DNA of 64,000 nucleotides. It comes from Sabellastarte sp. h YS-2021 (taxonomy: Eukaryota; Annelida; Polychaeta; Sabellida; Sabellidae). The notes under the pieces are model-generated. The model saw nothing but the letters and a program-made list of their open reading frames with translations, was not told the DNA's origin and did no database searches. Below are positions 138 through 58,239 of this stretch, in pieces. Position numbers and translations under genes: made by a program. The first letter of the stretch is position 1, and each line of letters begins with the position of its first letter. The DNA is taken from the NCBI GenBank assembly GCA_964017235.1, contig OZ024930.1:25362614-25426613 (forward strand), written 5' to 3'.

Positions 138-166
138 GTGCCCGTTCACGGGCACTCTCCTCTTGT
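138..166 (+). mobile_element. 3' end of a Helitron/Helentron-like element
   Basis: A perfect 7-bp stem (GTGCCCG / CGGGCAC) is followed 4 bases later by CTCTTGT and then TT. The same layout, a hairpin then CTCT(A/T)GT, ends the elements at 9345-11537, 11659-13063, 25226-27703 and 53415-58220. The 5' part is not recognisable in the first 137 bases and may lie outside the window. Short, but the repeated architecture supports it. Confidence 0.45.
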
Positions 167-581
167 TTATCATTGTTGATGATTATTCATAGTTATTTTG
201 ATATGTTTCTTGAATAGCTGAGTTTAAATTTCTCTTCAAAAGTTTTACTGAGCATTATATCAGTAACCTGTCTTGTCAAAAAATATATCAGTTATTTAAA
301 CTAAAAGACTGCCCACAAGTGAGTTTTAACTCATTAAATCCTAACTCAGGTTCTTGTACCTTTGATGTTTTCACATAAAATATTTTGTCATACATCAAAG
401 CTGCCAGTACCTTTTATTGGGGGAATTTGTGCAGAATACTCACTTTTGTCAAACAAACTCAGGCTGAGTGACTGAATGCTAAAATAGGCTGTGGAGTCCT
501 AATTGCAGTTAAGCTTGTTTCATCAAACAGGATTAACATCAAAGTTTTCTGCATTTGTTTCATGTAATTAATGAAGCGCCA

Positions 582-600
582 CCCCCCCCCCCCCCCCCCC
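582..600 (+). repeat. C homopolymer run
   Basis: About 19 consecutive C bases, then G and five more C. A simple repeat in an AT-rich intron. Its length is likely variable or uncertain in assembly. Confidence 0.95.
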
Positions 601-737
601 GCCCCCATAACAAGATCAGAAAACAAACTCTCCTGAAAAAAAAAATTTTTAAAAATGAACTGGACCTATCTGCCCTTCTTACAACTAAATTTAAAAAGTT
701 ATAGAATATATGACTATTATTGATCACATTGCAAAAC

Positions 738-1238
738 TGCTCATTATTTATTCAATTATACAAAAAAGTACAAGACATATCAAAATGTACCTTAATTACA
801 TGTCATACAGTTAAAACTACAACTTGAATTGCTTCTATTGGCAAAAAATAAAACTTCCTGTCAATAAAATTTTTGAAAAGATAGTCACACAGACTGCTTG
901 AAAACTCAAACCATAGTTTAAGTATTTGATATAGTTAAACAAACCACATAATAACATTAGATGATATACTAAGAACTAAAAAATGATTTGAATGTAGTAC
1001 CCTTCTTATTAGTTAAATAAGACTAAGTATGAAATGTATCATTATGAATGATTATATATAGTAAAACTGTTTCTTTAATAATTTATGCAAAAATGTACGA
1101 GATATATCAAAATATATCTTCATTAATTTTCATATAGTTAAAACTACATCATGAATTGCTCATAGCAAGAAAGAATCAGTTTCTATCAAAAAGACACTTT
1201 AAAAAGATGATTACACAGATTGCCTGAAATCTCAAATA
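738..1238 (+). repeat. Diverged tandem duplication, unit about 325 bp
   Basis: 738-912 and 1065-1238 align along their length. Shared blocks include GTACAAGACATATCAAAAT versus GTACGAGATATATCAAAAT, GTTAAAACTACA in both, TGAATTGCT in both, and CACACAGACTGCTTGAAAA versus TACACAGATTGCCTGAAAT. Divergence is visible at many sites, so the duplication is old. The second copy ends beside the MITE at 1242, whose terminal motif resembles the copy's last bases. No coding potential. Confidence 0.7.
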
Positions 1239-1241
1239 CTT

Positions 1242-1398
1242 GTTTAGGCAATCTGTGTAACACTGAACCTTATATTTCAGTCATTATGTGAAATGCCTAG
1301 GCATTTCGCGAAATAGCTAAACTGTTTAGGCATTTCGCGAAATGACTGAAATGTTCAGTCATTATGCGTAATGCCTGGTTACACAGATTGCCTGTAAC
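1242..1398. mobile_element. 157-bp palindromic MITE, GTTACA..GGCAATCTGTG family
   Basis: The terminal inverted repeats are GTTTAGGCAATCTGTGTAAC on the left and the complement of GTTACAGGCAATCTGTGTAA on the right. The core is a chain of palindromes: GGCATTTCGCGAAAT occurs twice and related ATTATGCGTAATGCC arms follow. The terminal motif is close to that of the MITE at 4271-4706 (GTTACAGTGAATTTGTGT), so the two are related families. No target duplication could be fixed. Confidence 0.7.
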
Positions 1399-1934
1399 AT
1401 ATATACATTTCATACATTTTAAAGTAGGTGGGATTGATGATATAATTTTTTTATTAAATTATACTTTGGTTTTATTTTGTTCCATTATCAGAATACAATA
1501 ATATTTATAAATATGTCCCTAAAAGTGGCCACGTTTTTATAATTCAAAATGGCGCCGATGAAAACCGGAGGAAATGATTGGTTGTTGCTATTGTAGTAAA
1601 CAGGATATTTGCCGATTTGCGGTATTTTGATTGACACCGTGGAAAGGTCCATAGTACTATAGAGTGAATAAATACTAATTGAAATGTGACACTGAAGAAA
1701 AGTTGGACGAAGCTGTTCAAAATGTATGCTTAATAGTTGGTACAGGTTAGAGTTTACGATAAATTTACAGCTGAATTTAAGTTAAGATATGAGTCAGCTT
1801 AAATATGCAAACAATAAGTTTTAATTGATACAAATCTCAAATGGATATTACACAAAGACACAATAAATACTGCACATGCAGGAAACTATAAAATTCTATT
1901 TTACTAGTGTTTTTGTAACGCTTTATCTCCCTCT

Positions 1935-2640: not shown

Positions 2641-2969
2641 GAAATGAAATGTGTAAAATGCAGAATTTTACATTGTGTAATTTATGTCACACTTTTATAA
2701 AATAGTCAGCAAGGTTACCAAAATTTGTAGTGTGTTGTGGTTTGAAAAATAAATATTTCACACGAGGAAATGGAAATCATAGTGGGTATAACTTCTGTAT
2801 CATGAAACATGAAAACAGGTGCAAGTTGCTATGGGACAAGGTATAAATGAAAAATACAAAATACACTTTTATAAGTAAAAGAGAAACCCCCGCACACACA
2901 TCCTTTAACAAATGACTTGGATTGTGTAACTAGTAACATATATAATGGCTATTTTAATTTTTTCACCAG

Positions 2970-3058
2970 CCGCTATGTGACCGTTCCTAAGAACACAGAT
3001 GATTGGCTAACTCGCTCTGACTCCCAGAATTCAGAGGAGGACACTATGGAGAGTAGCG
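2970..3058 (+). CDS. USP15: USP exon: acidic Ser/Glu linker
   Basis: The acceptor TTTTTTCACCAG precedes the exon and the donor GTGAGT follows it. The exon enters at phase 2 (one base completes an upstream codon) and leaves with one base of a split Asp codon completed at 5235. It encodes RYVTVPKNTDDWLTRSDSQ followed by an acidic NSEEDTMESS stretch. In USP4/15 proteins an acidic, poorly conserved insert lies just before the VNSYG segment, between the two halves of the catalytic domain, and that is the likely identity. It is the least conserved of the seven exons. Support comes from the splice signals and exact phase continuity with the next exon rather than from motifs. Confidence 0.75.
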
Positions 3059-3124
3059 GTGAGTGGTAAAACAAATATAGCAGAACCCTGTAATACCACA
3101 AGTCTGTAAATAAGAATTCTTTAG

Positions 3125-3145
3125 TAACCTCTACCGAGGAGGTTA
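3125..3145 (+). repeat. 5' hairpin of an array-bearing element
   Basis: TAACCTC and GAGGTTA form a 7-bp stem around TACCGAG. This stem, followed by a pyrimidine/GT-rich lead (TTTGCTTGTCTGTGTTTG), resembles the starts of the elements at 11659 and 25226. No matching 3' end was found downstream, so this may be a truncated or composite copy leading into the array at 3186-3930. Confidence 0.4.
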
Positions 3146-3185: not shown

Positions 3186-3930
3186 TATTTGTTTTCACAT
3201 AAGTTCGACTGATCACCGCCGCCTGATTATGGTCTCACTTGGATAACTTTGTGGGCTTTCAAATTTTTCTTTCCTTATTAACTTTCTTTAAAACTATAGG
3301 GGCGCGAAAAAAATGCTTATATCTCGAATTTTTCTCAAAAATTGCAAAACACCAAAATGTTTATATCTCGAAAACCGTGCTAGATAGAGCAATTTCGACA
3401 AAATTTTTGACCCGCAGACTATCTCTTCAGAGTAGCCATCCCAATTTTCAAAAAAAATTTGTCTCACTAAAAATGGCAGACATTTTGAGTTTTCGAATTT
3501 TTCGCAAAAATTGCAAAACACAAAAATGCTTATATCTCGAAAACCGTGCTAGATAGAACGACACAATTTTTGATCCGCAGGGTATCTCTTCAGAGTAATT
3601 CTCCTAATTTTCAAAAAAAATTTGTCTCGCCAAAGATGGCGCCCATTTTGAAGTTTCGAATTTTTCTCAAAAATTGCAAAACACAAAAATGCTTATATCT
3701 CGAAAACTGTGCTTAGATAGAGTGATTTCAACAAAATATTTGACCCACAGGGTATCTCTTCAGAGTTAGCCATCCCAATTTTCAAAAAAAATTTGTCTCG
3801 CTAAAAATGGCGGCCATTTTGAATTTTTCGAATTTTTTGCAAAAAGAAAACAAAGCACAAAAATGGTTATATCTCAAAAACCATGTTAGAGCGATTTCAA
3901 CAAAATTTTTGACCCGCGTTTTGAAATTTT
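3186..3930 (+). repeat. Satellite-like array A, about 4 copies of a ~168-bp unit
   Basis: The unit carries AAAATGCTTATATCTCGAAA, CCGTGCTAGATAGAGCGATT, GGGTATCTCTTCAGAGTAGC and AAAATGGCGGCCATTTTGAA. It is the same unit as in the arrays at 9720-11400, 53830-54690, 56445-57045 and 57815-58090. Here it is preceded by about 110 bp (3186-3295) that also occurs at 52863-52980, so that lead belongs to a dispersed element. Open frames on both strands arise because the unit is close to a multiple of three and are not genes. Confidence 0.85.
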
Positions 3931-6294: not shown

Positions 6295-6702
<408 letters not shown>

Positions 6703-9053: not shown

Positions 9054-9344
9054 CCGGTTTGATACTTGGCCTTTGTAACTGGGATAGTTACTAATTGCTT
9101 GCAGATGCTGCATTGTTGAAGCCATAGAATCTTGACCAAATAATGTTTACTACTGCTTTCTTCTGATGTGTTTATTTAAACACATCTAAAATATACAATT
9201 TTCTATAGTATTTTACATTAACTCTCAGGGAAACTCGTTAATTACACTTTTATTTGTGAAAGATTCTTTTCCAAATGGTGGGGATTTTTTTATGTCAGAT
9301 GCTTGTGTGTTTATCTGATCAGTTATTCAGCTGGCTCCAGAATT

Positions 9345-11537
9345 AAGTGTCCCGCAAGGGATGCTTTTTTGTGAATAGGAGAAAATGAGGCTCCGCCGGC
9401 TCCGCATTTCGTTTTCCGTATAACTCTGTAACCGTTAGGCGGATTCTTTTCAAATTTGGCAGGTGTATGCAGTAGCCTTGGGGAATTTTTTTTGAATATG
9501 CTGCAGTGCCATTTCAACCAATCAGAGAGGTCACATGACCAAAAATGTCTTTTTTTTTCGATGGGTAAGCTTGTCCAGATGATAACTTGAAAGGGATTTT
9601 ATCAATTCACCTGAAACTTGGCAAATACATTTATTCTATTAAAATCTGGAAATCCTTAGATTTTGGCATTGATTGGTTAAGAAATGGCCGAGTAATTAAT
9701 GATTAATTAATCATTACGAATTTTCCAAATAACGAAAACACAAAAATGCTTCTATCTCGAAAACCGTGCTAGATAGAGCGATTTCGACGAAATTTTTGAC
9801 CCACAGGGTATCTCTGCAGAGTGGCCATCGCAATTTACCATAATTTTTTGTCTCGCCCAAAATGGCCGCCATTTTGAATTTTCGAATTTTTCCCAAAAAT
9901 TGCAAAACACAAAAATGCTTATATCTCGAAAACCGTGCTAGATAGAGCAATTTCAACGAAAGTTTTGATCCACAGGGTATCTCTTCAGAGTAGCCATCCC
10001 AATTTAAAAAAAAATTTTGTCTCGCCCAAAATGGCGGCCATTTTGAATTTTTCACAAAAATTGCAATACACAAAAATGCTTATATCTCGAAAACCGTGCT
10101 AGATAGAGTGATTTCGACGAAATCTTTGACCCATAGAGAAATTCTGCAGAGTGGCCATCCCAATTTTCAAAAAAATTTTGTCTCCCCCAAAATGGCCGCC
10201 ATTTTGAATTTTTCGCAAAAATTGCAAAACTCAAAAATGCTTCTATCTCGAAAACCGTGCTAGATACAGCGATTTCAACGAAATATTTGATCCACAGGGT
10301 ATGTCTGCAGAGTAGCCATCCCTATTTTCCAAAAATTTTTGTCTCACCAAAAATGGCGGCCATTTTGAATTTTCGAATTTTTCGCAAAAATTGCAAAACA
10401 CAAAAATGCTTATATCTCAAAACTGTGCTTGATAGAGCGATTTCGACAAAATTTTTTAAACCGCAGGTTATCTCTGCAGAGTAGCCATCTCAATTTTCAA
10501 AATGTTTTTGTCTCGCCATTTTGAATTTTCGAATTTTTCGCAAAACACAAAAATGCTTATATCTCGAAAACCGTGCTAGATAGAGCGATTTCGACGAAAT
10601 TTTTGATCCACAGGGTAACTCAGTAGAGTAGCCATCCCAATTTTCAAAAACAATTTGTCTCACCCAAAATGGCGGCCATTTTGAATTTTTCGCAAAAATT
10701 GCAAAACACAAAAATGCTTATATCTCGAAAACTGTGCTAGATAGAGCGATTTCGACAAAATTTTCAAACTGCAGGGTATCTTTTCAGAGTAGCCATCTCA
10801 ATTTTCAAAAAAATTTTGTCTCACCATTTTGAATTTTTTCACAAAAATTGCAAAACACAAAAATGCTTTTATCTCGAAAACCGTGCTAGATAGAGCGATT
10901 TCAACGAAATTTTTGACCCACAGGGTATTTCTGCAGAGTAGCCATCCCAATTAAAAAAAAAAAAAAATTGTCTCACCCAAAATGGTGGTCTTTTTTGAAT
11001 TTTCGAATTTTTTGCAAAAAATGCAAAACACAAAAATGCTTATATCTCGAAAATCGTGCTCGATGGAGCAATTTCGACGAAAATTTTGACCCACAGGGTA
11101 TCTCTGCACAGTAGTAATTCCAATTTTCAAAAAATGGCGGCCATTTTGAATTTTCGAATTTTTCGCAAAATTGCAAAACACAGAAATGCTTATATCTCGC
11201 AAAACTGTGCTAGATAGAGTAATTTCAACAAACTTTTTTACCCACAGGGTATCTCTGCAGAGTGGCCATCTCAATTTTCAAAACATTTTTCTCTCACCAA
11301 AAATGGCGGCCATTTTGAATTTTCTAATTTTTCGCAAAAAATGCAAAACACAAAAAATGCTTATATCTCGAAAACTGTGCTAGATAGAGCAGACTACGCA
11401 GAATTTGGTTTCCACAACAGTATAAGGCTAGAAGCAGAACATTTTCACTTAAGCACTCACCATTATATCCTTTTTGGGACGCTTTGTTTTTGCTGTGCAA
11501 AAACATTATCTTTTTTTTTTGCAAGCGATCCTCTAGT
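9345..11537 (+). mobile_element. Helentron/HINE-like element carrying satellite array A
   Basis: It begins with a hairpin (arms AAGTGTCCC and GGGATGCTT) and ends GGGACGCTT (11476-11484), then the hairpin GTTTTTGC/GCAAAAAC (11486-11504), then CTCTAGT (11531-11537). The flanks join as ...AATT|TGTT..., an insertion between two T bases without duplication. 9345-9720 is a lead shared with the copy at 53415. 9720-11400 is a run of about 10-11 satellite A units. No replicase/helicase is encoded, so it is non-autonomous. The class is inference from the terminal structure. Confidence 0.6.
9720..11400 (+). repeat. Satellite array A, about 10-11 units of 150-172 bp
   Basis: TATATCTCGAAAACCGTGCT-type starts occur near 9745, 9915, 10078, 10240, 10408, 10553, 10717, 10865, 11040, 11190 and 11360. 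Spacing varies because some units lack the GGCGGCCATTTTGAATTTTC block. Units differ by many substitutions, so the array is not freshly expanded. Confidence 0.9.
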
Positions 11538-11658
11538 TGTTTCTGGCATTTGGATGGGTTTATTAGTCAGTTTACTACAGTGCTTCAAAATAACGTACCC
11601 TTAACATTTTTTGGTAATATTTAACACTTTATAACCATTTTCTCCCTTCCTGTTTTTA

Positions 11659-13063
11659 GGCGGGTTGCGTGTAACCAACCCGCCTATTAGATTGATGTGT
11701 CCGACGTGCGTCCACATTTTTCGTTTCCGGACTCGAACTCAAAAACGGTTTGTCCGATCGAATTCAAACTTGACAGGGACATAGATCAACACCATAGCTA
11801 GGTTCCTTTCGATATTGGTGAAATTCCGTCTGTTCGTTTGTCCGTTTTTCGTCCGTTTGTCTGTCCATCCGTCTATTTGTCCACATTTTCGTTTCCGGAC
11901 TCTAACTCCAAAACGGTTTGACCAATCGAATTCAAACTTGACAGGGAGATAGATCACCATCATAGCTAGGTTCCTTTCGAAATTGGTGAAATTCCGTCTG
12001 TTCGTTTGTCTGTTTTTCGTCCGTTTGCCTGTCCATCCATCTGTTTGTCCACATTTTTGTTTCCGGACTCTAACTGGAAAACGGTTTGACCAATCGAATT
12101 CAAACTTGACAGGGAGATAGATCATCATCATAGCTAGGTTCCTTTCGAAATTGGTGAAATTCCGTCTGTTCGTTTGTCTGTTTCTTGTCTGTTTGTCTGT
12201 CCATCTGTCTGTTTATCCACATTTTCGTTTCCGGACTCTAACTCGAAAACGGTTTGTCCAATCGAATTCATACTTGACAGGGACATTGACAGGGACATAG
12301 ATCACCATCATAGCTAGGTTCCTTTCGAAATTGGTGTAACTCCGTCTGTTCGTTTTTCTGTCCGTTCGTTTTTGCTCCGTTTTTCTGTCCATCCATCTGT
12401 CCGTCCACATTTTCTTTTCCGGACTCGAACTCGAAAACGGTTAGTCCAATCAAATTCAAATTTCACAGGGACATACATCACCATCATAGCTAGGTTCCTG
12501 TCGAAATTGGTGAAATTCCGTTCGTTCATTTGTCCATTTTTGTCCGTTTGTCTGTCCACCAATCTGTTTGTCCACATTTTCGTTTCCGGACTCCAACTCG
12601 AAAACACTTTGTCCAATCGAATTCATACTTGACAGGGATATAGATCACCATCATAGCTAGGTTCCTTTCGAAATTGGTGTAATTCCGTCTGTTTGTTTGT
12701 CCGTTTTCCTGTCTGTTTGTCTGTTTTTTATCCATTTTTCTGTCCATCCGTCTGTCTGTCCACATTTTCGTTTCTGGACTCTAACTCGACTCTTTGTCCA
12801 GTCGAATTCAAACTTGACAGGGAGATGTATCACCATCATAGCTAAGTTGCTAAGTTGGTGTAATTCCGCCCTTTCATTTGTCCGTTTATAGCATAGATAC
12901 AATTATGTAACCTAGATTACAAGTTTTACGTTTCTTAGCACGTCTTACACATTCACCTTAACTGGGTTTCTTTCCTTCTTTTCTAAATGTAATTACAGCA
13001 GTTGCTAATCTTATTTCTGCCTGCGCAACCCGCCTTCTTTTGGGGCATCTGTGACCCTCTTGT
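11659..13063 (+). mobile_element. Hairpin-ended element with a 169-bp array
   Basis: It starts with GGCGGGTTG..CAACCCGCC (hairpin). The arm reappears at the far end as CGCAACCCGCC (13024-13034), followed by CTCTTGT at 13057-13063. Between them lies an array of about 7 units. The terminal logic is the same as the elements at 9345 and 25226: the 5' hairpin arm is repeated in inverse near the 3' end, then a short tail ends in CTCT(A/T)GT. No protein-coding capacity. Confidence 0.6.
11710..12890 (+). repeat. Tandem array, about 7 units of ~169 bp
   Basis: Each unit has TCCACATTTTCGTTTCCGGA, AACTCGAAAACGGTTTGTCC, AATCGAATTCAAACTTGACA, ATCACCATCATAGCTAGGTT and a (GTCTGTTT)n-like tract. Starts lie near 11711, 11880, 12048, 12217, 12402, 12570 and 12758. 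Minus-strand open frames of 80-130 codons across it are artefacts of the repeat. Confidence 0.9.
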
Positions 13064-14380: not shown

Positions 14381-16530
14381 ATGTCTTCGCCTAGCCAAAA
14401 GCATGGAAGCTGTGGACATATCATGGCTAGCTTTGACAGCCATAACTTCTGCGCACGCTGCAGAGAGAAGGGTAAGGGCTCAGATCCGTGTACTTCCAAA
14501 AATGACTGTAACTCTTGCAATTTATTAACTGAAGAACAACGCTTACAGTTGTCCACTCCTTCTTATAGGATTAAGAAAGAGAAAAGGGATCTTAAGAAAT
14601 CCCCCGATACCCCCAAGCAAGACTCATCCAGTTCCTCTCTCATACACCCGTCCTCTGTGACGGTACTGGGAGCTGTGGACGGCCAGGGGATTTTGCAGTC
14701 CCCTGGTTCGAGTGCAGGGAAGAAGAAGAAATCTACTTCATCAGACAAACCCAAGGTCGCTTCCAAGGACAGTAAAACTAATGTGGAGAAACCCCCTAAA
14801 TCGTCTGTCAAACCTCACAATTCTTCAGTTGATTCCAGGATCGACGACTTAGACCTTAAGTGGTCGGACAGATTTAATAGAATTGAGGCTCTACTGTTAG
14901 CAAGGTCTTTGGAGAAACCTGAACCAGCCTTTACTTCGGTAAAGATTGCTCCAGCACACTCGCCTCCTGCCAGTTCGGTCATCTCCTCCAAACCCTTCAT
15001 TAGACCTTCTGATGCTTCTCAGGGATCAGACTCATCGGTCACCGACCTCACCTCACAGAAACAGGTTACCGACCAGTCAACTGGACCGGACAAGCGACAA
15101 CAGACCTCAGATTTGCATGGTTTTACTCAAACTGTCTCCAAGTCGACCAGCAAGTCGTTAAAGGGAAAAGCCTCTACCGACCGACTCTCAGATCTGGCTG
15201 GTACTGAATCTCCAGTTTCTCAACAAGTACCCAGCAGGTCGTCATCGGCACCGGCCAGAAGGCTTAGTACTTCCTCTATGGACACCAATACCGACACCGA
15301 CCTTTCTGATCGTCCCCCAGTGGACATTTTTGTCGAAGAGGGAGAACTCTCAGATCAGGAACATGACACCACCGCTGCCGACCCCGACCAGACCCTCTCA
15401 GAGGACCAAAACTATAGAGAAACTATGAGAGGGATCCGGTCGTTCATGGGGTGGACCCATATCCCTGATACGGATACGGCAGCATCAACGGCGGACGACA
15501 ACCCATTCGCAGGTCCGAAAGCCCAGCCTACAGGCAAGATCTCAGTTTCAATGCCCACCGATGAGTGGCTCTGTAGTAAGATGGGTAAACTAAATCTAAC
15601 ACTTACAGAGGGTTACCCGTCGCGCAGCTCAGAGGCTGGTGGCCTACTTAAGGAGTTCGTACGCCCCCCCGAGATCACAAGCTAAGTGATACAGCTTTAC
15701 ACCGAACCAGGAAAATGTAGGGAAGGACCCTAGCAAGACTGTATCTTCATGGTGCACGGACTCTTCTAAGATTAACAGCACCTACAGTCGCATTGCCAAG
15801 GCTGCAGGCATTGCATCCACCCCACCAGCTTCTCGTCAAATCTGTCAAGACAACTTACGAAGGTGGGAGAAGTCTGCCCGCGAAGCCTCTATCATATGCA
15901 ACCAGGCGGCAGGCTTCAACCGGTGTCTGTACAAGGTGCAGGATTCTATGCAATCCCAACTGAAAGTGCTTAAAGCCGACTTTAGCAAAGGAAAGTCTTC
16001 CTCCAAGGTATCTCAGGCGGTGGATGAACTGCAGTTTTTGATGGAGTTTAACTCCAGTATCACTCAATCCATGGCTAAGACATTAGAACATTTGACGGAC
16101 TTCGTCTTTGTCACTGTCGCCAACACCACCCTGGCCAGACGAGATTCTTACCTGTCTCACCTCAAGTTGGGTGTCAAGCCTGATACCTTTGCCGCTTTGC
16201 GAACGGGCCCCCTGCATATACCTACACTGTTCCCGGACTCAGAGCAGGATATTGCCAACTTCGAAAGCAAGGGACAGACCCATTCTGGGAAGAAAGGTCG
16301 CTTTCACCCTTATGAGCGTCAAGACAAATGCTCAGACTTCAGAAAGCCGGACCGCCCTGCTTGGAAGAACATTGGCAACAGGGGCCAACAGAAGAAAGGA
16401 AAACCCAAAGCCTCTTACTACTCATCGCGACCAGCCAAGGGCCAAGGGGCCAACAGAAGAAAGGAAAACCCAAAGCCTCTTACTACTCATCGCGACCAGC
16501 CAAGGGGCAGTCCTATAAATGACAATTACT
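14381..16530 (+). other. Gag-like region of DIRS fossil A
   Basis: The start MSSPSQKHGSCGH is followed by an N-terminal Cys/His cluster (CGH, CARCREKGKGSDPC, CNSC) that could bind zinc. Next come a Ser/Thr-rich low-complexity stretch, an acidic GELSDQEHD block with EDQNYRETMRGIRSFMGW, and a C-terminal helical region with RRDSYLSHLKLGVKPDTF. The same layout is seen in E (43291 on) and, in reverse, in D (32572-34349), so these conserved blocks define the protein for this family. The function is inferred as nucleoprotein. Confidence 0.8.
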
Positions 16531-16989: not shown

Positions 16990-18640
16990 CCAAAAACGCA
17001 GTGGAACTGGTGCGAAACCAAAAATCCCTGGGGTTTTTCAACCGACTCTTCCTGGTACCAAAACCCAACAACAAATGGAGACCCATTTTGGACCTAAGCA
17101 AACTAAATGTCTTTCTCAAGGTGGAGAAATTCAAAATGGAAACACCAGAAACCATCAGAACCTCTCTCCACCGGGGGGAATGGGTCACCTCCATAGATTT
17201 CAGGGACGCTTACTTCCACATACCCATACAAGAACAATCCAGGAAGTATCTCAGGTTTCATTTCCGAAACCAAACATACCAGTTCAAGGCTCTGCCCTTT
17301 GGTCTCTCAACAGCACCTTTGGAATTCACTGTGATAGCCAAAGAAGTGAAACTAATGGCCACACACAAGGGTATAAGGATCCACCAGTACCTAGACGACT
17401 GGTTGATGAGAGCCAGATCCCACCAGGCCTGTCTCCAACATACTCAGACCCTAGTACAAATGTGCAAGGATCTAGGTTGGATGGTGAACTTGGAAAAGTC
17501 AGAACTGCAACCCAAACAAATCTTCGAATTTGTAGGCTACTAGTTCGACCTCACGGTCGGTCGAGTCCGACCGACACCGGACCGGTGGCAAATCCTCCAG
17601 GACACCATAACCAAAATTCTGTCTTCACCGGCCTGTCCGGTCAGACAGTTCATGTCCTTGATCGGTCTCTTAACAGCCACAGAAAAACAAGTTCACCTAG
17701 GCAGACTGCATATGAGACCCATACAATGGCACCTCAAAAACAACTGGCACGTGCCCGAATCTCTACAAAAAGTGATTCCTCACTTAAGATGGTGGCTTCA
17801 AGAAGACAACGTTCTCACAGGCCAACCATTACACCCCATAAAACATGCTCTGCAAATCTTTACAGACGCATCAAAAGAAGGGTGGGGCACTCACTTAAAC
17901 GAACGCACTGCAAGAGGTTTGTGGTCCCTACCGGAAAGCCATCTACACATAAACTACCTGGAATTAAAAGCAGTGCTCCTAGCACTGAAGGAATTCCGGG
18001 ATCTATGCTCCGGACAGATAGTACTGGTAGCAACCGACAACACTACAGTAGTGTCGTACATCAACAAGGAGGGAGGAATGAGGTCGGGCCCGCTTTGTGC
18101 TCTACTATGGAGAATGTTAACTTGGTGCACCAGACATCAGGTCACTCTCAAAGCCCGACATATACCAGGCAGGCTGAACGTGGTAGCAGACAAGCTATCT
18201 CGCCTAGGCCAGATAATTCAAACCGAATGGTCTCTCCTCCAAGAGATTTTCCAGGCGACATGCGACAGGTGGCACCAGCCCGATATAGACCTGTTCGCCA
18301 TGAGGTTCAACAACAAGTTACCTCAATTCGTTTCACCAGTACCGGACACACTTGCAGTGGCAGTGGACGCACTCAGTCTTCAATGGGAGAGAATGGATGC
18401 TTATGCCTTCCCACCGACAGCCATCTTGGGCAAGGTGGTGGAGAAATTACGGGACTCCCATTGCAAGAGAATCATCCTGATTGCTCCAGGATGGCCCAAC
18501 ATGCCTTGGTTTTGGGATCTTGTGACCATGTCCAGTCAGATCCCACTGAGCCTGCCCAATCTGCTGATCCAGCCTTTCAATCAGATCCCTCACAGAAATC
18601 TGACAAATCTGAATCTCCATGCATGGCTCCTAGAGCCACA
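16990..18640 (+). other. Reverse transcriptase / RNase H region of DIRS fossil A
   Basis: RT motifs include GFFNRLFLVPKPN, SIDFRDAYFHIPI, LPFGLSTAP and the catalytic-type HQYLDDWLM box. They are followed by an RNase H-like domain with IFTDASKEGWG, YLELKAV, ATDNTTVV and KARHIPGRLNVVADKLSR. The order and the YLDD form are typical of DIRS elements. It overlaps the start of the recombinase region in another frame, an arrangement the family is known for. Confidence 0.88.
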
Positions 18641-24606: not shown

Positions 24607-25225
24607 AGTCAGCATATAAGAAAATGTGGCTTAGTCTTCGGAAATACAGTAATGATTTGTACGTTTTCTTTGTATACTGAATATGACAAAAATATTTCCC
24701 AACCACAATTTTTTACCTGGTTCAAAGTAGTTCAGACAAGTAGACAGGTACCCTCACTTCTGTAACTGTATTGTATCCAGGTTTTTGTGTTCTAGCTTTA
24801 ACCAACTGGATGTACCAGTAATGATTGTTGACATAAACAATTTTATCATAAATAAACATGAAATATCTGAAAAAAATAAGGAAAATTATGTTTAAAAGCA
24901 GATAAGGTATACAAATGTAACTGTGAATTAGGTTTTTTTCATGTAATTGATCGAAATAGACAATATGTCAAAAGTTTTGGGAGTAACCAGTTCATTAGTT
25001 TGCACGGTGTTAGTCAGTTTTGCAGCTTGCTTTGATTTCAAAAGCATCATAAAAACTAAATACATTGCACTTTGAAAATGTGTGCACAATTTTTTGTTGT
25101 TTTTTGTCTTTTTTAGAGCATCCAGCTGGGTTAATATTACATTATTTTGCTGTTGGATATTGCTGAAGTAAATTTTGTAGAACACTATTATATGATAGCA
25201 TATTAATTAATTGGTCACAATAATT
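24607..25225. other. Intergenic, no feature seen
   Basis: AT-rich unique sequence with scattered AATAAA-like words (for example near 24851). No coding, RNA or repeat signal was found. Confidence 0.6.
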
Positions 25226-25559
25226 GTATCCCCGGACGAAAGTCGGGGATACTTAGGATTCAGTACGGTCACGCCGCCGCCGCCGCAGAGATTTCCTTTT
25301 GGACGCGATAACTTAAAAAATATTTTAGTTAGAACTTTCAAATTTGGTATGTGGGTATATATGGGCAATGCCACAAACGCTATTGTTTTGTGACCTTGAC
25401 CTTCAATCTCAAGGTCACTGGTGGCCATTTAAAGGTCAGATTTTGGCCATTTTTGCACATTTTGGCCCAGTTCTCCAAGACAGAAAGTTAGATCATCCTA
25501 TGGCTGGTATATATAATAGTAATACATATATATGTCCTCTATAAGCATGCAGAAATTTG

Positions 25560-25985
25560 ACCTTGAAGCTCTTCATTGAAGGTCATCCACTGACCGCCAA
25601 AGTACTTGACCGAGGGGCATTTTTGGCCTTTTTGGAGATATTTTCACACTTAACGCTGACTATATTGCATGGAAACTATTGAAAATGGCTTTGGAGGTTG
25701 AGTACATGATGGACTTCTGCCATCCAGGTTTACTGGTTACAGATCTTCATTTAAGGTCATCCACTGACCGCCAAAGTACCTGACCAAGGGTCATTTTTGG
25801 CATATTTGGAGATATTTTCACACTTAATGCTGACTACATTGCGTGGAAACTATCGAAAATGGCTTTGGAGGTTGAGTACATGACGGAGTACCAGCATCCA
25901 GGCTGACCGGTTACAGATCTTCGTTGAAGGTCATCCACTGACCGCCAAAGTACCTGACCGAGGGTCATTTTGGGCCCTCTATTTG
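25560..25985 (+). repeat. Tandem array, about 2.5 units of 174 bp
   Basis: GGTCATCCACTGACCGCCAA recurs at 25581, 25755 and 25929, exactly 174 bases apart. Each is followed by GACC(A/G)AGGG(T/G)CATTT and GGAGATATTTTCACACTTAA. Confidence 0.9.
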
Positions 25986-25989
25986 TTTG

Positions 25990-27600
25990 TTTGTTTGTAA
26001 ACAAGATAACTCAAAAACTGACAGACGGATTTTGATGAAATTTTCAGGATATGTCCAAATTGGTAAAAGGAAGATGTGATTAAATTTTGGGAGTGATACG
26101 GATCACTGTCTGTATCTTCTGGATCCATGAAATTTAGTTTTTAAACACAGATAACTCAAAAAGTTATGGGTGCATTTTGATGAAATTTTCAGGAGATGTC
26201 CTTATTGGGACGAGGAACAAGTGATTAGATTTTGGGAGTGATCCGGATCACTGTCTGGATCATCTGGATCCAGACTGCCAGATGTGTTTGTGTACAATAT
26301 AGCTCAAAAACTTATGAACGGATTTTGATGAAATTTTCAGGATATGTCTGAAAAGGTAAAAGGATGAAATGGCTGAATTTTGGAAGTGATCCGGATCACT
26401 CTATGGATCTTCTGGATCCATGAAATGTAATAAGACAGATACCTCAAAAAGTTATGGATGGATTGTGATGACATTTTCAGCAAATGACCTAAATGGTGCG
26501 AGGAACAAGTGATTAGATTTGGGGAGTGATCTGGATCATCTGGATCCAGGTTGCCAGATGTGTTTGTGTACATTGTAGCAAAAAAACTTATGGACGGATT
26601 TTGATGAAATTTTCAGGATACGTCTGAAAAGGTAAAAGGATGAAATAACTGAATTTTGGAAGTGATCCGGATCACTGTATGGATCTTCTGGATCCGTGAA
26701 ATGTAATAAGACATACCTCAAAAAGTTATGGATGGATTGTGATGACATTTTCAGCAAATGACCTAAATGGTACAAGGAACAAGTGATTATACTTTTGGAA
26801 TGATCTGGATCACCGTCTGGATCATCTGGATCGAGCCTGCAACATGATTTTACGATGAATTTTGATGATATTTTTAGGCTATGTTACAAATAGTAAAAGG
26901 AAGAAGTGGTAAAAGGATGAAATGATTGAATTTTGGAAGTGATCCGGATCACTATATGGATCTTCTTGATCCATGAAATGTAATTTTTTAAGACAGATAC
27001 TTCAAAAAGTTATGGATGGATTGTTTCAGCAAATGGCCTAAATGGTACAAGGAACAAGTGATTACATTTTTGGAGTGATCTGGATCATCTGGATCCAGGC
27101 TTGCACATAATCTTGGAATGGATTTTACTATTTTCAGGATATGTTACAAATGGTAAAAGGAAGAAGTGGTAAAAGGAAGAAATGGTTCAATTTTGCGAGT
27201 GATCTGGACCACTATCTGGATCTTCTGGATCCGTGAATGTAATTTTTAAAGACAAATAGCTCAGAAAGTCATGAATGGATTTTTATGAAATTTTCAGGAA
27301 ATGTCTTAAATGGGACAAAGAACAAGTGATTAGATTTGGGAGTAATCTGGATCACTGTCTGGATCATGTGGATCCAGGCTGCCAGATGTGTCTGTGTACA
27401 AGATAACTCAAAAACTTATGGATGGATTTCGATGAAAGTTTTAGAATATGTCTGAAAAGGTAAAAGGATGAAATGATTGAGTTTTGGAAGCGATCCGGAT
27501 CACTATATGGATCTTCTGGATCCATGAAATGTAATTTTTAAAGACAGATATAAGTGAAACAACTAGTGATTAGCTTTTGGAAGTAATCTGGTACTATGGA
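25990..27600 (+). repeat. Tandem array, about 11 units of ~140 bp
   Basis: Units carry AACTCAAAAACTTATGGACG, TTTTGATGAAATTTTCAGGA and TGATCCGGATCACTGTCTGG / ATCTTCTGGATCC. Two subtypes alternate over part of the array (GGATATGTCTGAAAAGGTAA versus AGCAAATGACCTAAATGGTA), suggesting amplification of a dimer of about 280 bp. Later units are irregular. Confidence 0.85.
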
Positions 27601-27703
27601 GAATCCTGACCTGGTGCTCCAGGAAACAGGCTCAAGCCCGACACATTCACGCCTTAACTATGTCCCGTCCGGGGATACACTGCGTCGAGACGCAATCTCT
27701 AGT

Positions 27704-39613: not shown

Positions 39614-40044
39614 TATATGTGTGCACGTTAGAAAGTTTAAGAATTGTGTTTGATATTGCATTTCTTCAGACAACTAATAAAGTGTTAAACAAGTTTCTTT
39701 CTTTAATGTTCATATGTATACACACACTGACATTATGGCATTACTCTGTGGTGTCTACATACTCATACATCAGCTTGAACAACTTCTCCAAAAAATGAGG
39801 CCCAGAAACACACTGTTTCTTTTAGAAGATGCCTTGTCTATCATGGATGAAAAATTGCTCAAGGAATGCAGATCTCGTCTGTTCCCCAGAGTCATTACCA
39901 AGGAGATACCCCCATAGAAATTGTGAAACTTTCAATACTTTTTGTCAATGACAATTGTAGGGATTTCCCTCTTATCTTATGTATATGTACTTGGCCACAA
40001 GTAGATTCCCTTGTGTGAGTATCAGGCCTTGATTTTTCTTAAGT
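39614..40044. other. Short intergenic stretch with a dispersed 80-bp repeat
   Basis: 39955-40035 (TAGGGATTTCCCTCTTATCT, GTAGATTCCCTTGTGTGAGT, ATCAGGCCTTGA) also occurs in reverse at 56262-56345 and forward at 59990-60090. A 67-codon open frame at 39714-39917 has no recognisable domain, and I do not call it a gene. Confidence 0.6.
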
Positions 40045-40066
40045 GTATCCACCAGACGGTGGATAC
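40045..40066 (+). repeat. 5' hairpin of a hairpin-ended element
   Basis: GTATCCACC and GGTGGATAC surround AGAC. It resembles the first hairpin of the element at 25226 (GTATCCCCG / CGGGGATAC). No 3' counterpart was found, so only a start is visible. Confidence 0.4.
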
Positions 40067-45899: not shown

Positions 45900-47510
45900 A
45901 CCTCAAACTGTTAGAGGCATTACATCAGCTTATGGACAAAAATGCCATAGAATTGGTCCACAAACAGACCTCATTAGGGTTTTTCAACCGACTATTTCTA
46001 GTCCCCAAATCTTAGACCTGAGCAATCTGAATTTTTTCCTCAAGACCAAAAAATGGAGACCCCGGAAACCATCAAGATATCTCTCCAACAGGGAGAGTGG
46101 GTAACCTCCATAGACTTCAAGGACGCTTATTTCCACATTCCGATACAGGAACAGTCCAGGAAATACTTGAGATTTCATGTCCAGGGCCAGACCTTCCAAT
46201 TCAAAGCTCTACCGTTTGGCCTGTCCACAGCGCCCATGGAGTTCACTGTCATAGCCAAGGAGGTAAGAGCACTGTCAGAGCCACATCCCACCGGGAATGT
46301 CTCCAACATATGCAAGTCTCTAGGTTGAATGGTGAACACAGAAAAGTCGGAGCTGGAGCCAAAGCAAATTTTCAATTTTGTTGGTTACCAGTTCGACCTC
46401 CAGTCTGGTCGGGTCCGACCGACACCGGACTGGTGGCAGAATTTACAAGGGAAAATACTGGAACTCCTTGCCCTCCGGACGTGTTCGATGAGGGAGTTCA
46501 TGTCCTTGATAGGCCTGTTAACAGCCACAGAAAAGCAGGTTCACCTAGGCAGGTTACACATGAGGCCCATTCAATGGCATCTCAAAAGCAATTGGAGGAT
46601 TCCGGAGTCCTTAGAAAAGAGGATTCCTCTACCCAGATCTTTACACCCCCACCTACAATGGTGGCTAAAGGAAAGCAATGTTCTCACCAGCCAACCATTA
46701 CACCCAATATGACATGCTCTGCAAGTCTTTACAGACACATCAAAAGAAGGGTGGGGCTCTCAATTAAACGAGTTCACTGCCAGGGGAACTTGGTCCCTAC
46801 CAGAAAGCAAGCTACACATAAATTATCTGGAACTCAAGGCAGTGTTTCTGGCCTTAAGAGAGTTTCAAGATCTATGCATGGGCAAGATGGTTCTTATAGC
46901 AACTGACAATACCACAGTGGTAGCTTACATCAACAAAGAGGGGGGTATGAGGTCTGGCCCATTGTGTGCCCTACTATGGAGAATCTTGACCTGGTGCTCC
47001 GGAAAACAAGTCACCCTGAGGGCTCGACACATCCCAGGTCGCTTAAATGTGGTGGCCGACAAATTATCCAGACTAGGGCAGACAGAATGGTCCCTTCGAC
47101 CACAAGTTTTTCAAAGGTTGTGCCACAGGTGGCACCGACCTCAGATAGACCTCTTTGCCACAAGATTCAACAACAAGCTTCCCCTCTTTGTATCACCGGT
47201 TCTGGATCCCATGGCCACTGCAATAGATGCACTCAGCCTGCCATGGGGAGATCTGGATGCCTATGCCTTCCCACCAACAGCCATATTGGGCAAAGTGATG
47301 GAGAAATTACAAGACTGCCCTTGCAAAAGACTGATTCTTATTGCACCGGGGTGGCCCAACATGACATGGTTCTGGGACTTGGTGGAGATGTCCAGCCAGA
47401 TTCCATTACTCTTGCCTCAACCACCCAACCTTCTGACTCAGCCCTTCAATCAGACCCCTCACAGAAGTCTGTCAAACCTAAATCTCCATGCATGGCTCCT
47501 AGAGCCATAA
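45900..47510 (+). other. RT / RNase H region of DIRS fossil E
   Basis: SLGFFNRLFLVPKS, TSIDFKDAYFHIPIQEQSRK, LPFGLSTAPMEFTVIAKEV, FVGYQFDLQSGRV, then the RNase H-like ATDNTTVVAYINKEGGM and RARHIPGRLNVVADKLSR. It corresponds block by block to A. Confidence 0.87.
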
Positions 47511-52862: not shown

Positions 52863-53829
52863 TATTTGTTTTCACTGAAGTTCGACTGATCGCCGTCACA
52901 GGATTATGGTCTCCCTTGAATAACTTCTTAGGTTTTCAAATTTTTCTTTCCTTTTTATCTTTCTTTAAAAATATAGGGGCTGGAAAAATTTGGGGGATAC
53001 TTTGCGCAGACCTTAAGCTTTACTTAAGGTAACCTTAAGCATTTTCAAAAACACCCCATCATTGCGTTTCGGAAAAAACCACACATACCTGTGCTATAAA
53101 ATTTATCAGGTACATTCTAGACCAAATTTTTGGTCAGGATTTTCTCATCAATTGGACCATAGATGCTTGAATGGGAGGCGTTTTATTTTCATAAATTTTT
53201 TAAAATTGGGTACTTGGTCTGTATCTCAAAAACAGTCAGGATTTCGGCGTTTTGTTGGAATAACTTATTCAGCTACTTTTTGATAATCTTTCACATGCCA
53301 AAGTTTTAGCCCTGTATCTGCAATCTTAAGGTCACCTTAATGTCAAAAAGGGGGTTTTAGCCCTCCAGTTCACTTACTTTTTCACTTTTTTCAACCAAAC
53401 TTGGCAAATTTATTAAGCATCCCGCAAGGGACGCTTGTTTGTGTATGGGAGAGCTTCCGGCTCCGGCGGCTCCGCCGGCTCCGGCGGCTCCGCCGGCTCC
53501 GCATTTTGTTTTCCTTATAACTCTGTAACCATTAGGCGGATTCTTTTCAAATTTGGCAGGTTTAGGCAGTAGCCTTGGGGAATTTTTTTGAATATGCTGC
53601 AGTGACATTTCAACCAATCAGAGAGGTCACATGACCAAAAATGTCTTTTTTCGATGGGGAAGCTTGTCCGGATGATAACTTGAAAAGAATTTTATCAATT
53701 CACCTGAAACTTGGCAAATACATTCATTCTATTAAAATCTGGAAATCATTAGATTTTGGCATTGAGTGGTCAAGAAATGGCCGAGTAATTAATGATTAAT
53801 TAATCATTACGAATTTTCCAAATAAGGAA

Positions 53830-54690
53830 AACACAAAAATGCTTATATCTCGAAAACCGTGCTAGATAGAGCGATTTCGACGAAATTTTTGACCCGCAGG
53901 GTATCTCTGCGGACTAGTTTTTCCAATTTTCAAAAAATTTTTGTCTCGCCCAAAATGGCGGCCATTTTGAATTTTCGAAATTTTCGCAAAAATTGCAAAA
54001 CACAAAAATGCTTATATCTCGAAAACCGTGCTAGATAGAGCGATTTCGACGAAATTTTTGACGCACAGGGTATCTCTGCAGAGTAATTATCCCAATTTTG
54101 AAAAAATTTTTGTCTCACCAAAAATGGCGGCCATTTTGAATTTTCGAATTTTTCGCAAAAATTGCAAAACATAAAAATGCTTATATCTCGAAAACCCTGC
54201 TAGATAGAGCGATTTCGACGAAATTTTTGACCCACAGGGTATATCTGCAGAGTAGCCATGCCAATTTTCAAAAAAATTTTGTCTCGCCAAAAATGGCGGC
54301 CATTTTGAATTTTCGAATTTTTCGCAAAAATTGCAAAACATAAAAATGCTTATATCTCGAAAGCCCTGCTAGATAGAGCGATTTCGACGAAATTTTTGAC
54401 CCGCAGGGTATCTCTGCAGAGTAGCCATGCCAATTTTCAAACAAAAAATTTCTCGCAAAAAATGGCGGCCATTTTGAATTTTCGAATTTTTCGCAAAATT
54501 GCAAAACACAAAAATGCTTATATCTCGAAAACCGTGCTAGATAGAGCGATTTCGACGAAATTTTTGACCCACAGGGTATCTCTGAAGAGTAGCCATGCCA
54601 ATTTTCAAAAAAATTTTATCTTGCCAAAAATGGCGGCCATTTTGAATTTTCGAATTTTTGCTCAAAAATTGCAAAACACAAAAATGCTAA
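53830..54690 (+). repeat. Satellite array A, about 5 units of ~168 bp
   Basis: Unit starts (ATGCTTATATCTCGAAAACC) near 53838, 54008, 54178, 54347 and 54515, spacing 168-171. Further units lie at 56445-57045 and 57815-58090, so the array has been split by inserts. Confidence 0.92.
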
Positions 54691-54691
54691 T

Positions 54692-56240
54692 ATATTTTAC
54701 TATGTTATAGCTCACCCAAAAGTAGCTGAATAACATATTTATACTAAATTCTCTAAATGCAATAGTTTTCCAATTACAACTGATTTACTCAATAGTGAGA
54801 ACCTCAAAGTAGTTATTACTCAGCTATGCAATGAGCTACAGGTCTGAAATTTTGCTATGTTATAGCTCACCCAAAAGTAGGTGAACAACATATTTAAGCA
54901 AAATACTGTAAATGCAATAGTTTTCAAGTTACAACTGATTTACTCAATAGTGATGACCTAAAAGTAGCTATTACTCAGCTATGCCATGAGCTACAGGTCT
55001 GAAATTTTACTATGTTATAGCTGACCCAAAAGTAGCTGAATAACATATTTATACGACATTTTCTAAATGCAATAGTTTTCCAATTACAACTGATTTACTC
55101 AATAGTGAGAACTTCAAAGTAGCTATTAGTCAGCTATGCCATGACCTACAGATCTGAAATTTCACTATGTTATAGCTGGCCCAAAAGTAGCTGAATAACA
55201 TATTTATACGAAATTCTCTAAATGCAATAGTTTTGCAATTACAACTGATTTACTCAATAGTGAGAACCTCAAAGTAGTTATTACTCAGCTATGCAATGAG
55301 CTACAGGTCTGAAATTTTACTATGTTATAGCTGACCCAAAAGTAGGTGAACAACATATTTAAGCAAAATACTGTAAATGCAATAGTTTTCAAGTTACAAC
55401 TGATTTACTCAATAGTGATGACCTAAAAGTAGCTATTACTCAGCTATGCCATGAGCTACAGGTCTGAAATTTTACTATGTTATAGCTGACCCAAAAGTAG
55501 CTGAATAACATATTTATACGAAATTCTCTAAATGCAATAGTTTTCCAATTACAACTGATTTACTCAATAGTGAGAACTTCAAAGTAGCTATTACTCAGCT
55601 ATGCAATGAGCCACAGATCTGAAACTTCACTATGTTATAGCTGATCCCAAAATAGGTGAATAACATATTGAAACACAATACTGTAAATGCAATAGTTTCC
55701 AAGTTATAAGCGATTTACTCAACAGTGATAACCTAAAAGTAGCTATTACTCAGCTATGCCATGAGCTACAGGTCTGAAATTTTACTATGTTATAGCTGAC
55801 CCAAAAGTAGCTGAATAACATATTTATACGAAATTCTCTAAATGCAATAGTTTTGAAGTTATAAGCGATTTACTCAACAGTGATAACCTAAAAGTAGCTA
55901 TTACTCAGCTATGCCATGAGCTACAGGTCTAAAATTTTACTATGTTATAGCTGACCCAAAAGTAGCTGAATAACATATTTATACGAAATTCTCTAAATGC
56001 AATAGTTTTTAAGTTACAAGTGATTTTACTCATAATGGAAGTTACTGAAAAGCCCAAAAGTAGCTATTACTCACTTAGCTATTGAGACAGGCACCCAACT
56101 TACTCACCATATTGTAGCTATGAAAAAAGTAGCTGAATAACATATTTTAACAAAATGCTCTAAATGCAACACTTTTCAAGTTATAAATGATTTTGTGCAT
56201 GATTTCATGAATTTTAATGCATTAAAAATTATTAAAAAAA
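54692..56240 (+). repeat. Tandem array B, about 10 units of ~155 bp
   Basis: Units carry TTTTACTATGTTATAGCTGA, CCCAAAAGTAGCTGAATAAC, AAATGCAATAGTTTTCCAAT, TGATTTACTCAATAGTGAGA and CTATGCCATGAGCTACAGGT. They start near 54695, 54857, 55010, 55165, 55317, 55473, 55627, 55783 and 55935, with a diverged last unit. Two subtypes partly alternate (TATTTATACGAAATTCTCTA versus TATTTAAGCAAAATACTGTA). Confidence 0.92.
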
Positions 56241-56444
56241 TTTATTTAAAAAAAAGTAAGACAGATCCAGGTCTCATACTCACACAAGAGAATCTACCTC
56301 TGGCCTAGTACATATATGCAAGATATGAGAGAAATCCCTGCAATAGTCACTGAGAAAATTGTGATTAAGTGTTGAAATTTTCACACTTTTGGTGGGGGTA
56401 CCCCCCTTGTAATGTCTCTAGCAAACAGACGAACAGACAGCTGA

Positions 56445-57045
56445 CATAAAAATGCTTATATCTCGAAAACCCTGCAAGATAGAGCGATTTCGACGAAATT
56501 TTTGACCCACAGGGTATATCTGCAGAGTAGCCATGCCAATTTTCAAAAAAATTTTGTCTCGCCAAAAATGGCGGCCATTTTGAATTTTCGAATTTTTCGC
56601 AAAAATTGCAAAACATAAAAATGCTTATATCTCGAAAACCCTGCTAGATAGAGCGATTTCGACGAAATTTTTGACCCGCAGGATATATCTGCAGAGTAGC
56701 CATGCCAATTTTCAAACAAAAAATTTCTCACAAAAAATGGCGGCCATTTTGAATTTTCGAATTTTTCGCAAAATTGCAAAATACAAAAATGCTTATATCT
56801 CGAAAACCCTGCTAGATAGAGCGATTTCGACGAAATTTTTGAGCCACAGGGTATCTCTGCAGAGTAGCCATGCCAATTTTCAAAAAAATTTTGTCTTGCC
56901 AAAAATGGCGGCCATTTTGAATTTTCGAATTTTTGCACAAAAATTGCAAAACACAAAAATGCTAATATTTCGAAAACCGTGCTACATAGAACGATTTCGA
57001 CAAAATTTTTTATCTTCAGGGTATCTCTGCAGAGCAGCTATCCCA
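56445..57045 (+). repeat. Satellite array A, 3-4 units (second block)
   Basis: Resumes after array B with ATGCTTATATCTCGAAAACC; three full units and a partial. Closest to the 54170-54690 units (they share the CCCTGCTAGATAGAGCG variant), so the two blocks were probably contiguous or copied from each other. Confidence 0.9.
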
Positions 57046-57730
57046 AAGAGCTTTCACTTGGTGAAGTTTCAGACCCGTAGCTAATTACTCACCTACTCAA
57101 AATGAGTAAATCCTAATTATCTCAAAAACTATTGCGGATACCCAATTTTTCTCAAATAACTCATTCATGTACTTTTGGGATAGCTTTCACATGGTGAAGT
57201 TTCAGACCCGTAGATGATTACTCACCTACTCAAAATGAGTAAATGTGAATTATCTTTTAAAAGTATTGCAGATAGCCAATTTTTCTCAAATAACTCATTC
57301 ACCTACTTTTGGAAGAGCTTTCACTTGGTGAAGTTTCAGACCCGTAGCTAATTACTCACCTACTCAAAATGAGTAAATGCTAATTATCTGTAAAAGTATT
57401 GCGGATACCCAATTTTTATCAAATACTCATTCATCTACTTGTGGGAGAGCTTTCACATGGTGAAGTTTCAGACCCATAGCTAATTACTCACCTACTCAAA
57501 ATGAGTAAATGCGAATTATCTCTAAAAGTATTGCAGATAGCCAATTTTTCTCAAATAACTCATTCACCTACTTTTGGGAGAGCTTTCACTTGGTGAAGTT
57601 TCAGACCCATAGATAATTATTCACCTACTCAAAATGAGTAAATGTGAATTATCTCTTAATAGTATTGCAGATAGCCAATTTTTCTCAAATAACTCATTCA
57701 CCTACTTTTGGAAGAGCTTTCACACACGAA
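57040..57730 (-). repeat. Tandem array C, about 5 units of ~134 bp, inverted relative of B
   Basis: On + each unit reads GAGCTTTCACTTGGTGAAGT, TTCAGACCCGTAGCTAATTA, CTCACCTACTCAAAATGAGT and GCCAATTTTTCTCAAATAAC. Read on the minus strand this aligns with array B: CCCAAAAGTAGGTGAAT, CTATCTGCAATACTTTT, TTTACTCA, TTAGCTA and GGGTCTGAAAC. So C and B descend from one unit and face each other. Confidence 0.85.
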
Positions 57731-57814
57731 AATGAAAAATTGTGAATATCTCGGAAAAGCTATTTCTTCTGCTTTAATGCTCGGCGCGAGATACACACCG
57801 CGGCAGTGGTCTTG

Positions 57815-58090
57815 ACAAAAAATTTTGTCTCCCCAAAAATGGTGGCCATTTTGAATTTTTTGCAAAACACAAAAATGCTTATATCTCGAAAACCGTGCTA
57901 TATGGAGCGAACTCAACAAAATTTTTGACCTGCTGGGTATCTCTGCAGAGTAGCCATGCCAATTTTCAAAATATTTTTGTCTCGCCAAATATAACGGACA
58001 TTTTTAATTTTTTTATTTTTTGCAAAACACAAAAATGCTTATATCTTGAAAACCGTGCTAGATAGAGCAGACTGCGCTGACTTTGGTTGC
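57815..58090 (+). repeat. Satellite array A, about 2 terminal units
   Basis: Two diverged units (ATGCTTATATCTCGAAAACC, then ATGCTTATATCTTGAAAACC) running into GCAGACTGCGCTGACTTTGG, which matches the array end of the relative at 11385-11410. Confidence 0.85.
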
Positions 58091-58239
58091 CACAACAGTA
58101 TAAGGCTAGAAACGAAGCATTTTCTTAATACTTTAGCACTCACCTTTATATCCTTTTCGGGACGCTTTGTTTTTGCTATGCAAAAACATTATCTTTTCTT
58201 TTTGCGAGCGATCCTCTAGTTAAGATTTGCCAAAGGAAT

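Follow-up and report, generated by a model that had tools for sequence, protein, structure and literature searches.

Array-bearing, probably Helentron-type elements of four families in Sabellastarte sp., and a putative autonomous Helentron that shares the ends and satellite array of one of them

The 64,000 nucleotides examined here (the window) span positions 25362614-25426613 of contig C4 (OZ024930.1) of the sabellid annelid Sabellastarte sp. h YS-2021. In or beside this window lie five DNA elements that carry tandem arrays between conserved ends, and the evidence supports their assignment to Helentron-type transposons of four families, A, B, C and E. Very probably they are non-autonomous Helentrons (Helentron-associated interspersed elements, HINEs) to which the enzyme would be supplied in trans, and a parent of family B, a putative autonomous Helentron with the same ends and array, has been identified on contig C3. 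Element and end coordinates were read directly in the window and the feature positions then checked by script (Table 1); genome searches covered 1.786 Gb in 647 contigs (prefix C; individual loci have the prefix L).

All four families follow one plan: a 5' palindrome, internal arrays, an inverted copy of the first 5' arm near the 3' end (the subterminal inverted repeat, subTIR), and a short 3' palindrome, weak in B, before CTCTAG or CTCTTG and a T. That terminal T can be assigned to either element or target. The original prediction, made from the letters of the window, had proposed a single architecture for these elements, and direct reading of four elements and a lone 3' end bears it out; its boundaries lie within 1-2 bases of those in Table 1, with the exception of B, where a T-run may extend the start to 11653. 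The inverted subTIR copy is exact over 14 bp in C and over 12 bp in both E and B, and the 3' palindrome has exact stems of 9 bp in A, 5 bp in C and 8 bp in E, the B stem containing one mismatch. When exact pairing was demanded (at least 9 bp in the 5' hairpin, at least 9 bp in the inverted arm close to the opposite end, and at least 5 bp in the 3' hairpin), the three features occurred together in 1 of 4,000 random window segments. They occur together in C and E; B fails this test with 3 exact pairs in its 3' hairpin, as do both window copies of A (4-bp stem, 7-bp arm) and the outer end of the B parent (6, 8, 3). A scan confined to the window, for a hairpin plus TCT[AT]GT, did not set the elements apart from background: the top scores were 15 and 10, while 600 random positions scored as high as 15.

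Table 1. Features of the array-bearing elements; positions are those of the window unless a contig is given.
Feature	Position	Strand	Remarks
Family E 3' end	1..166	+	ends CTCTTG then T; remainder upstream at C4:25359434-25362613 (L066)
E subTIR	124-135		AGTCAGCTGACA
E 3' hairpin	138-155		GTGCCCGTTCACGGGCAC
Array of family A monomer	3324..3917	.	163-bp unit
Family A HINE-type element	9343..11537	+	ends CTCTAG then T
A 5' palindrome	9345-9366		usual form in other copies AAGCGTCCC-GCAA-GGGACGCTT
A array	9735-11390
A inverted 5'-arm copy	11476-11484		GGGACGCTT
A 3' palindrome	11485-11505
Family B HINE-type element	11653..13063	+	ends CTCTTG then T
B T-run and 5' palindrome	11657-11686
B array	11710-12887		~168-bp unit
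B subTIR	13024-13035		CGCAACCCGCCT
B 3' hairpin	13042-13057		GGGGCATCTGTGACCC, one mismatch
Family C HINE-type element	25225..27703	+	ends CTCTAG then T
C 5' palindrome	25226-25252		GTATCCCC..GGGGATAC
C arrays	25570-25975 and 25992-27535
C subTIR	27667-27678		GTCCGGGGATAC
C 3' hairpin	27681-27694		TGCGTCGAGACGCA
Solitary hairpin like a C-type 5' end	40045..40066	+	GTATCCACC-AGAC-GGTGGATAC after T; absent from the original prediction
Second family A element, composite	53413..58220	+	ends of family A; first array has the A monomer
Inverted, 3'-truncated family E-type fragment in A element	54694..56447	-	5' end at TTTTTATGTCAGCTG in an A-array unit
133-bp array in A element	57047..57723	.	related to E1 array (z 18 against shuffles)
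Autonomous Helentron, B parent (putative)	C3:168666687-168678957		12,271 bp; B 5' end twice, B array, B 3' end

The ends recur throughout the genome at the boundaries that had been proposed. Searches allowing at most 1 or 2 mismatches returned 6,729 A 5' ends, 3,561 B 3' ends, 2,662 C 3' ends and 9,077 E 3' ends, counted as single termini and not as whole elements, and the reversed control pattern of each gave 0 genome matches. The A 3' end is sharply placed, 39 of 39 other scored copies stopping at query positions 157-166 (window 11537-11546), and the A 5' end was recognised in all 14 fetched copies, 10 of them with a perfect 9-bp stem. The A subTIR pairs the 9-bp arm AAGCGTCCC of intact copies with GGGACGCTT of the window copy, and the arm is degraded in both window 5' ends. 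Both B ends are present in all eight loci, the 3' end as CTCTTG then T, and the 5' end lying further out than the first match in L007 and L002. The C 5' end is common to 30 of 30 loci, the window copy included; its 3' end is recognisable in 26 of the 30 and reads CTAG in 24 of these 26, L014 and L022 differing. One A locus (L087, C11:17243357-17243427) has the loop of its 5' hairpin inverted, CCCTTGCAGG for CCCGCAAGGG, as if flipped within the stem.

Family E 3' ends are uniform: eight of eight fetched copies read CTCTTGTT, have CTCTTG last, and diverge beyond it. The lone 3' end that had been listed at 138-166 is a genuine end, but it belongs to an element of ~3.35 kb (from the 5' end in L066 to window 166) that reaches C4:25359434. 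Its 5' end reads TTTTTA followed by a 13-bp palindrome at about C4:25359440, with the arm recurring at window 124-135; this placement is based on one copy (L066) together with the inverted fragment in 53415-58220. The end was found at the predicted positions in 0 of 8 other copies, perhaps because array length varies. An alternative 5' end at GTATCCACTGG (C4:25361578) was rejected, as 40 of 40 scored places, the window's included, run on through it. An internal stretch of 1,075 bp was scored in 39 places besides the window's own, from 6,656 first-look candidates, and is ~99% identical in them; at least part of family E is therefore young.

The region 53415-58220 had been described as one more element of the same plan. 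It does have family A ends, but it is composite, holding an inverted E-type fragment and a 133-bp array. Over 1,747 bp, positions 54695-56440 are 90% identical to E in inverted orientation, and the match stops at the E 5' terminus inside an A-array unit. The repeat that makes up the 133-bp array has also received a C insertion, at L021.

What do these elements insert into? One Rep gene copy (L042) is interrupted by a C-like element of 4,054 bp; this filled site reads GTTTATT-ATATCC...CTAG-TTTTGG, and the intact copy reads GTTTATTTTGG. Joined flanks of C match a spanning paralog among the fetched loci in 9 of 26 cases, and for 7 of these 9 at least one paralog has no gap beside the junction; joined flanks of B do so in 4 of 8 cases, with differences in the T-run. 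TT stands before the first G of C in 29 of 30 loci and after its 3' end in 23 of 26, against a TT frequency of 0.103 in the window. These empty sites show insertion into T-rich, mostly TT, targets with no duplication longer than TT; the original prediction had looked to related haplotypes for such sites, and the ones found are in paralogs, not haplotypes.

The same junctions bear on the relation to Helitrons proper. Canonical ends of the form A|TC...CTAG|T, the first reading of C and of the element at 53415, were discarded: T or TT, followed by G or AAG, stands before the palindrome, and TC is not terminal. None of the four families has TC as its 5' boundary; at the 3' end, A and C finish in CTAG, B and E in CTTG. 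It has been considered, however, that A and C stand nearer to canonical Helitrons, or represent a "proto-Helentron" in which TT...CTAG lies between A and T, with B and E as Helentrons proper. ATT directly precedes AAG at the A 5' end in 16 of 16 copies (14 fetched and two in the window), an A precedes the two bases before G in 22 of 30 C loci, the CTAG ends of A and C fit CTRR, and a Phytophthora element with 5' TT, 3' CTAG and A/T insertion is on record (PMC4067079). Against it, the 5' TC is absent at the deduced boundary, the A and C 5' ends are palindromes that recur, inverted, close to the 3' end in Helentron fashion, and a further T follows in 22 of 23 C copies ending CTAGT, which favours a TT target. 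We regard this placement of A and C as rather doubtful.

For family B the assignment to Helentrons is anchored by an autonomous partner. A search of the genome with the PF14214 profile gave 24 matches, one of which (L045) lies within an open frame of 2,245 aa. Searched against Pfam in three pieces, this frame contains Helitron_like_N (1.2e-25), DUF6570 (5.5e-14), PIF1 (1.7e-28) and Pif1_2B (2.1e-5) domains, with a weak match to Peptidase_C48 (1.4e-4). Its Rep motif VEFQHRGSPHLH, found in four loci of the parent's family (L042, L044, L045 and L047), has S between G and P, a residue in Rep motif 2 reported as diagnostic of Helentrons (PMC4067079). The B 5' end occurs twice upstream of the gene, at C3:168666687 (outer) and 168667287 (inner), along with a B array that matches at 92% over 459 bp. 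The tail downstream matches seven B copies at 87-88% over 187 bp; its match to the window copy extends over 199 bp, at 81%. A second copy, on C4, has the inner 5' end and the array, at 97% over 300 bp.

Four further Rep loci (L040, L041, L049 and L050) read RGWPHIH or RRWPHIH as against RGSPH, and may represent a further Rep lineage, one that carries W where the diagnostic S would stand. The search for an autonomous element with shared ends, which the original prediction had called for, was thus successful for B but yielded none for A, C and E. No A ends lie within 1.5 kb of the 24 Rep hits; C-like ends are nested in L042 and stand downstream in L043, and an E end occurs in L059 in opposite orientation. 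The A and C matches near Rep hits were rejected as partners, being nested or unrelated only.

Could the B ends on C3 be chance neighbours, left by a B element that inserted beside an unrelated Rep gene? In favour of this, the genome has as many as 3,561 B termini, insertions within insertions are frequent here, and one copy of the parent's upstream block (C14:75441386) has no tail among the 40 scored. Yet that upstream block, 2.4 kb long, is whole in five places only (7 of 7 candidates scored), and in four of the five, the parent included, the same tail follows at 9.4-9.9 kb, or at 13.5 kb with a 4.05-kb insert. The inner 5' end and array are common to two copies, and the tail copies end at nearly the same point: the 700 bp after the frame were found at 97-100% identity in 40 scored places, of 1,662 first-look candidates, and stop at query 692-700 in 39 of them and at 673 in one. 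A chance association is, on this evidence, very hard to credit, and the Rep/helicase gene is best taken as part of an element bounded by B ends. The high identity among the scored tails suggests recent activity.

These tail copies also indicate how the non-autonomous elements could arise. The 2.4-kb upstream block is absent from 36 of the 40, and in one such copy (C14:88646862) the last 300 bp of the frame stand directly upstream of the tail, at 99%. Six tail copies start at query 85, and in the one that was read (on C18) the tail directly follows a B array that shares 99% identity over 200 bp with the array of the parent, the arrangement that an internal deletion of the parent would leave.

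The same partner bears on the former label of the "pearl"-type bivalve elements, that of transposons with terminal inverted repeats (TIRs), such as miniature inverted-repeat transposable elements (MITEs). Inverted repeats near both ends and small size would suit such elements, and no long coding frame was noticed in the window copies, in a reading that included no systematic search for one. But the inverted repeat is asymmetric, pairing the 5' end with a site tens of bp inside the 3' end; no inverted repeats stand at the very ends, and no target duplication was seen beyond a possible TT. For B, whose ends belong to a Rep/helicase element, the TIR label is refuted by the partner, and for the group as a whole we give it almost no credence.

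Helentrons are DNA transposons whose presumed mode of movement is the rolling-circle replication of a single strand by a Rep/helicase protein that may include an endonuclease. In the scheme proposed here, Rep would nick the 5' end, the PIF1 helicase would displace the strand, the 3' palindrome would end the process, and the single strand would enter TT sites. Loss of the coding part would leave HINEs that retain ends and array, so that the satellite would spread as transposon cargo. Families A, C and E may share this mechanism with B, to judge from anatomy and target alone.

Locus L002 has B 5' ends at oriented positions 315, 1082 and 1497 with one 3' end, and the parent likewise repeats its 5' end (C3:168666687 and 168667287). 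Such a pattern would be expected were the products of rolling-circle replication to use some ends again or pass over others.

The place of the arrays in this scheme deserves comment. The original prediction had them different in each element, and most of the 28 pairs compared are indeed unlike; but E1 and the 133-bp array are related, as are, moderately, A and C2 (z 4.2). B and h45, a repeat flanking the autonomous element, form the other strong pair, and C2-C1 and C1-E2 are marginal. A single core common to all arrays, suspected by eye, was dropped given the few related pairs. If the arrays were independent satellites that captured or assembled ends, the architecture being convergent, unlike arrays would be no surprise, and the A-type array at 3324-3917, where no adjoining element ends were recognised by eye, could be cited in favour. 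However, the array and ends of a family co-occur in the same order in the copies read, and the autonomous element itself has the B array, which makes independent origin improbable. A bolder view, which we hold tentatively and think possible though not probable, is that the autonomous Helentron, with its doubled 5' end, has the array as a fixed and perhaps functional component, and that the dispersed satellites of this genome owe both their formation and their spread to rolling-circle replication of these elements.

Several observations weigh against the Helentron interpretation, or against parts of it. The C-terminus of the parent frame matches Exo_endo_phos (3.3e-5) with 24.2 bits, just under the cut-off of 24.5, and a sequence search of this endonuclease region against solved structures in the PDB gave 0 hits. 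The outer 5' end of the parent has an exact stem of 6 bp and was read in one copy only, and the B 3' hairpin is short, with one mismatch. No autonomous partner of A, C or E was found among the 24 Rep hits with 1.5 kb of flank, where more distant ones would be missed. At the target, the paralogs of L017 and L034 have G|T and T|G junctions instead of T|T, and some spanning paralogs are gapped beside the junction. What a filled site gains is the element and two Ts, an outcome compatible with T...T entering at T|T, with TT...CTAG entering at A|T, and with a 2-bp duplication of TT. For rolling-circle activity the signs are indirect: L002 and the parent each repeat the 5' end but have one 3' end. 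Set beside recurrent ends, T-rich empty sites and a Rep/helicase element with B ends and array, the prediction of a Helentron or HINE group nonetheless stands.

Some sequences related to family C occur apart from its complete elements. The hairpin at 40045-40066 looks like the lone 5' end of another C-like subfamily, and the window holds no further GGTGGATAC; directly 5' of it, 39727-40041 is a 74% match to E element positions 35-365. A C-like 5' end, GTATCCCCAGCG-TAAA-GCGGGGATAC, stands at 3299-3340 of L043, 1.2 kb downstream of a broken Rep domain. A segment near the C 3' end (27592-27628), possibly a captured fragment, recurs at 46972-47008 (92% over 37 bp) and 18103-18163 (75% over 61 bp). 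Elsewhere, the window has a perfect 65-bp tandem duplication at 16380-16506.

Helentrons and HINEs are described as having subterminal inverted repeats, a 3' stem-loop, T-strings and TT targets, with HINEs arising as deletion derivatives (PMC4067079). The mite, Culex and Drosophila elements of that account, DINE-1 among them, share with those described here the subterminal inverted repeats (palindromic in mite and Culex) and the 3' stem-loop; its Helentrons also have 2-5 boundary Ts, a Rep/helicase with a C-terminal endonuclease, and the S of Rep motif 2. They differ in sequence and host; here A and C end in CTAG, and the B parent has an inner second 5' end in both copies read.

The HINEs of oysters have a 5' subTIR with an adjacent inverted arm, a microsatellite (GTCY-like in several), a satellite array, a 3' subTIR and a palindrome (PMC7492417). 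The Cg_HINE elements of that paper resemble ours in these arms, in satellite-like arrays, in the 3' subTIR and palindrome, and in TT insertion without duplication. Several carry GTCY, GTCC or GTCK microsatellites; GTCY runs of 8-40 bases occur here in four B copies and the parent, and none in the window B copy by the same count. The bivalve elements pearl, DTC84 and MgE (PMC7492417) and CvA, CvE and CvG (PMC11136912), compared by description only, likewise have central tandem repeats between conserved ends, those of pearl being ~160 bp (PMC7492417).

With families A, B, C and E, new members are added to a kind of element already described, and repeat families are supplied for this genome. The gain is the partner of family B with its own copy of the satellite. 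For the HINEs of Crassostrea gigas no relation could be established to an autonomous Helentron, 10 of which stood in Repbase (PMC7492417), and no bivalve study since then was seen to report one in the passages covered, those of PMC11136912, PMC8268682, PMC12628747 and PMC10294476 included, the subscription literature lying mostly outside this scope. With the B parent and an apparent direct deletion derivative of it, the origin of such satellites becomes testable: does the enzyme mobilise array-bearing derivatives, and is the array needed? Dispersed satellites of oysters are known to ride in HINEs (PMC7492417); unlike Cg_HINE, family B is tied to an autonomous Helentron that appears to encode the enzyme and has the same ends and the same satellite.

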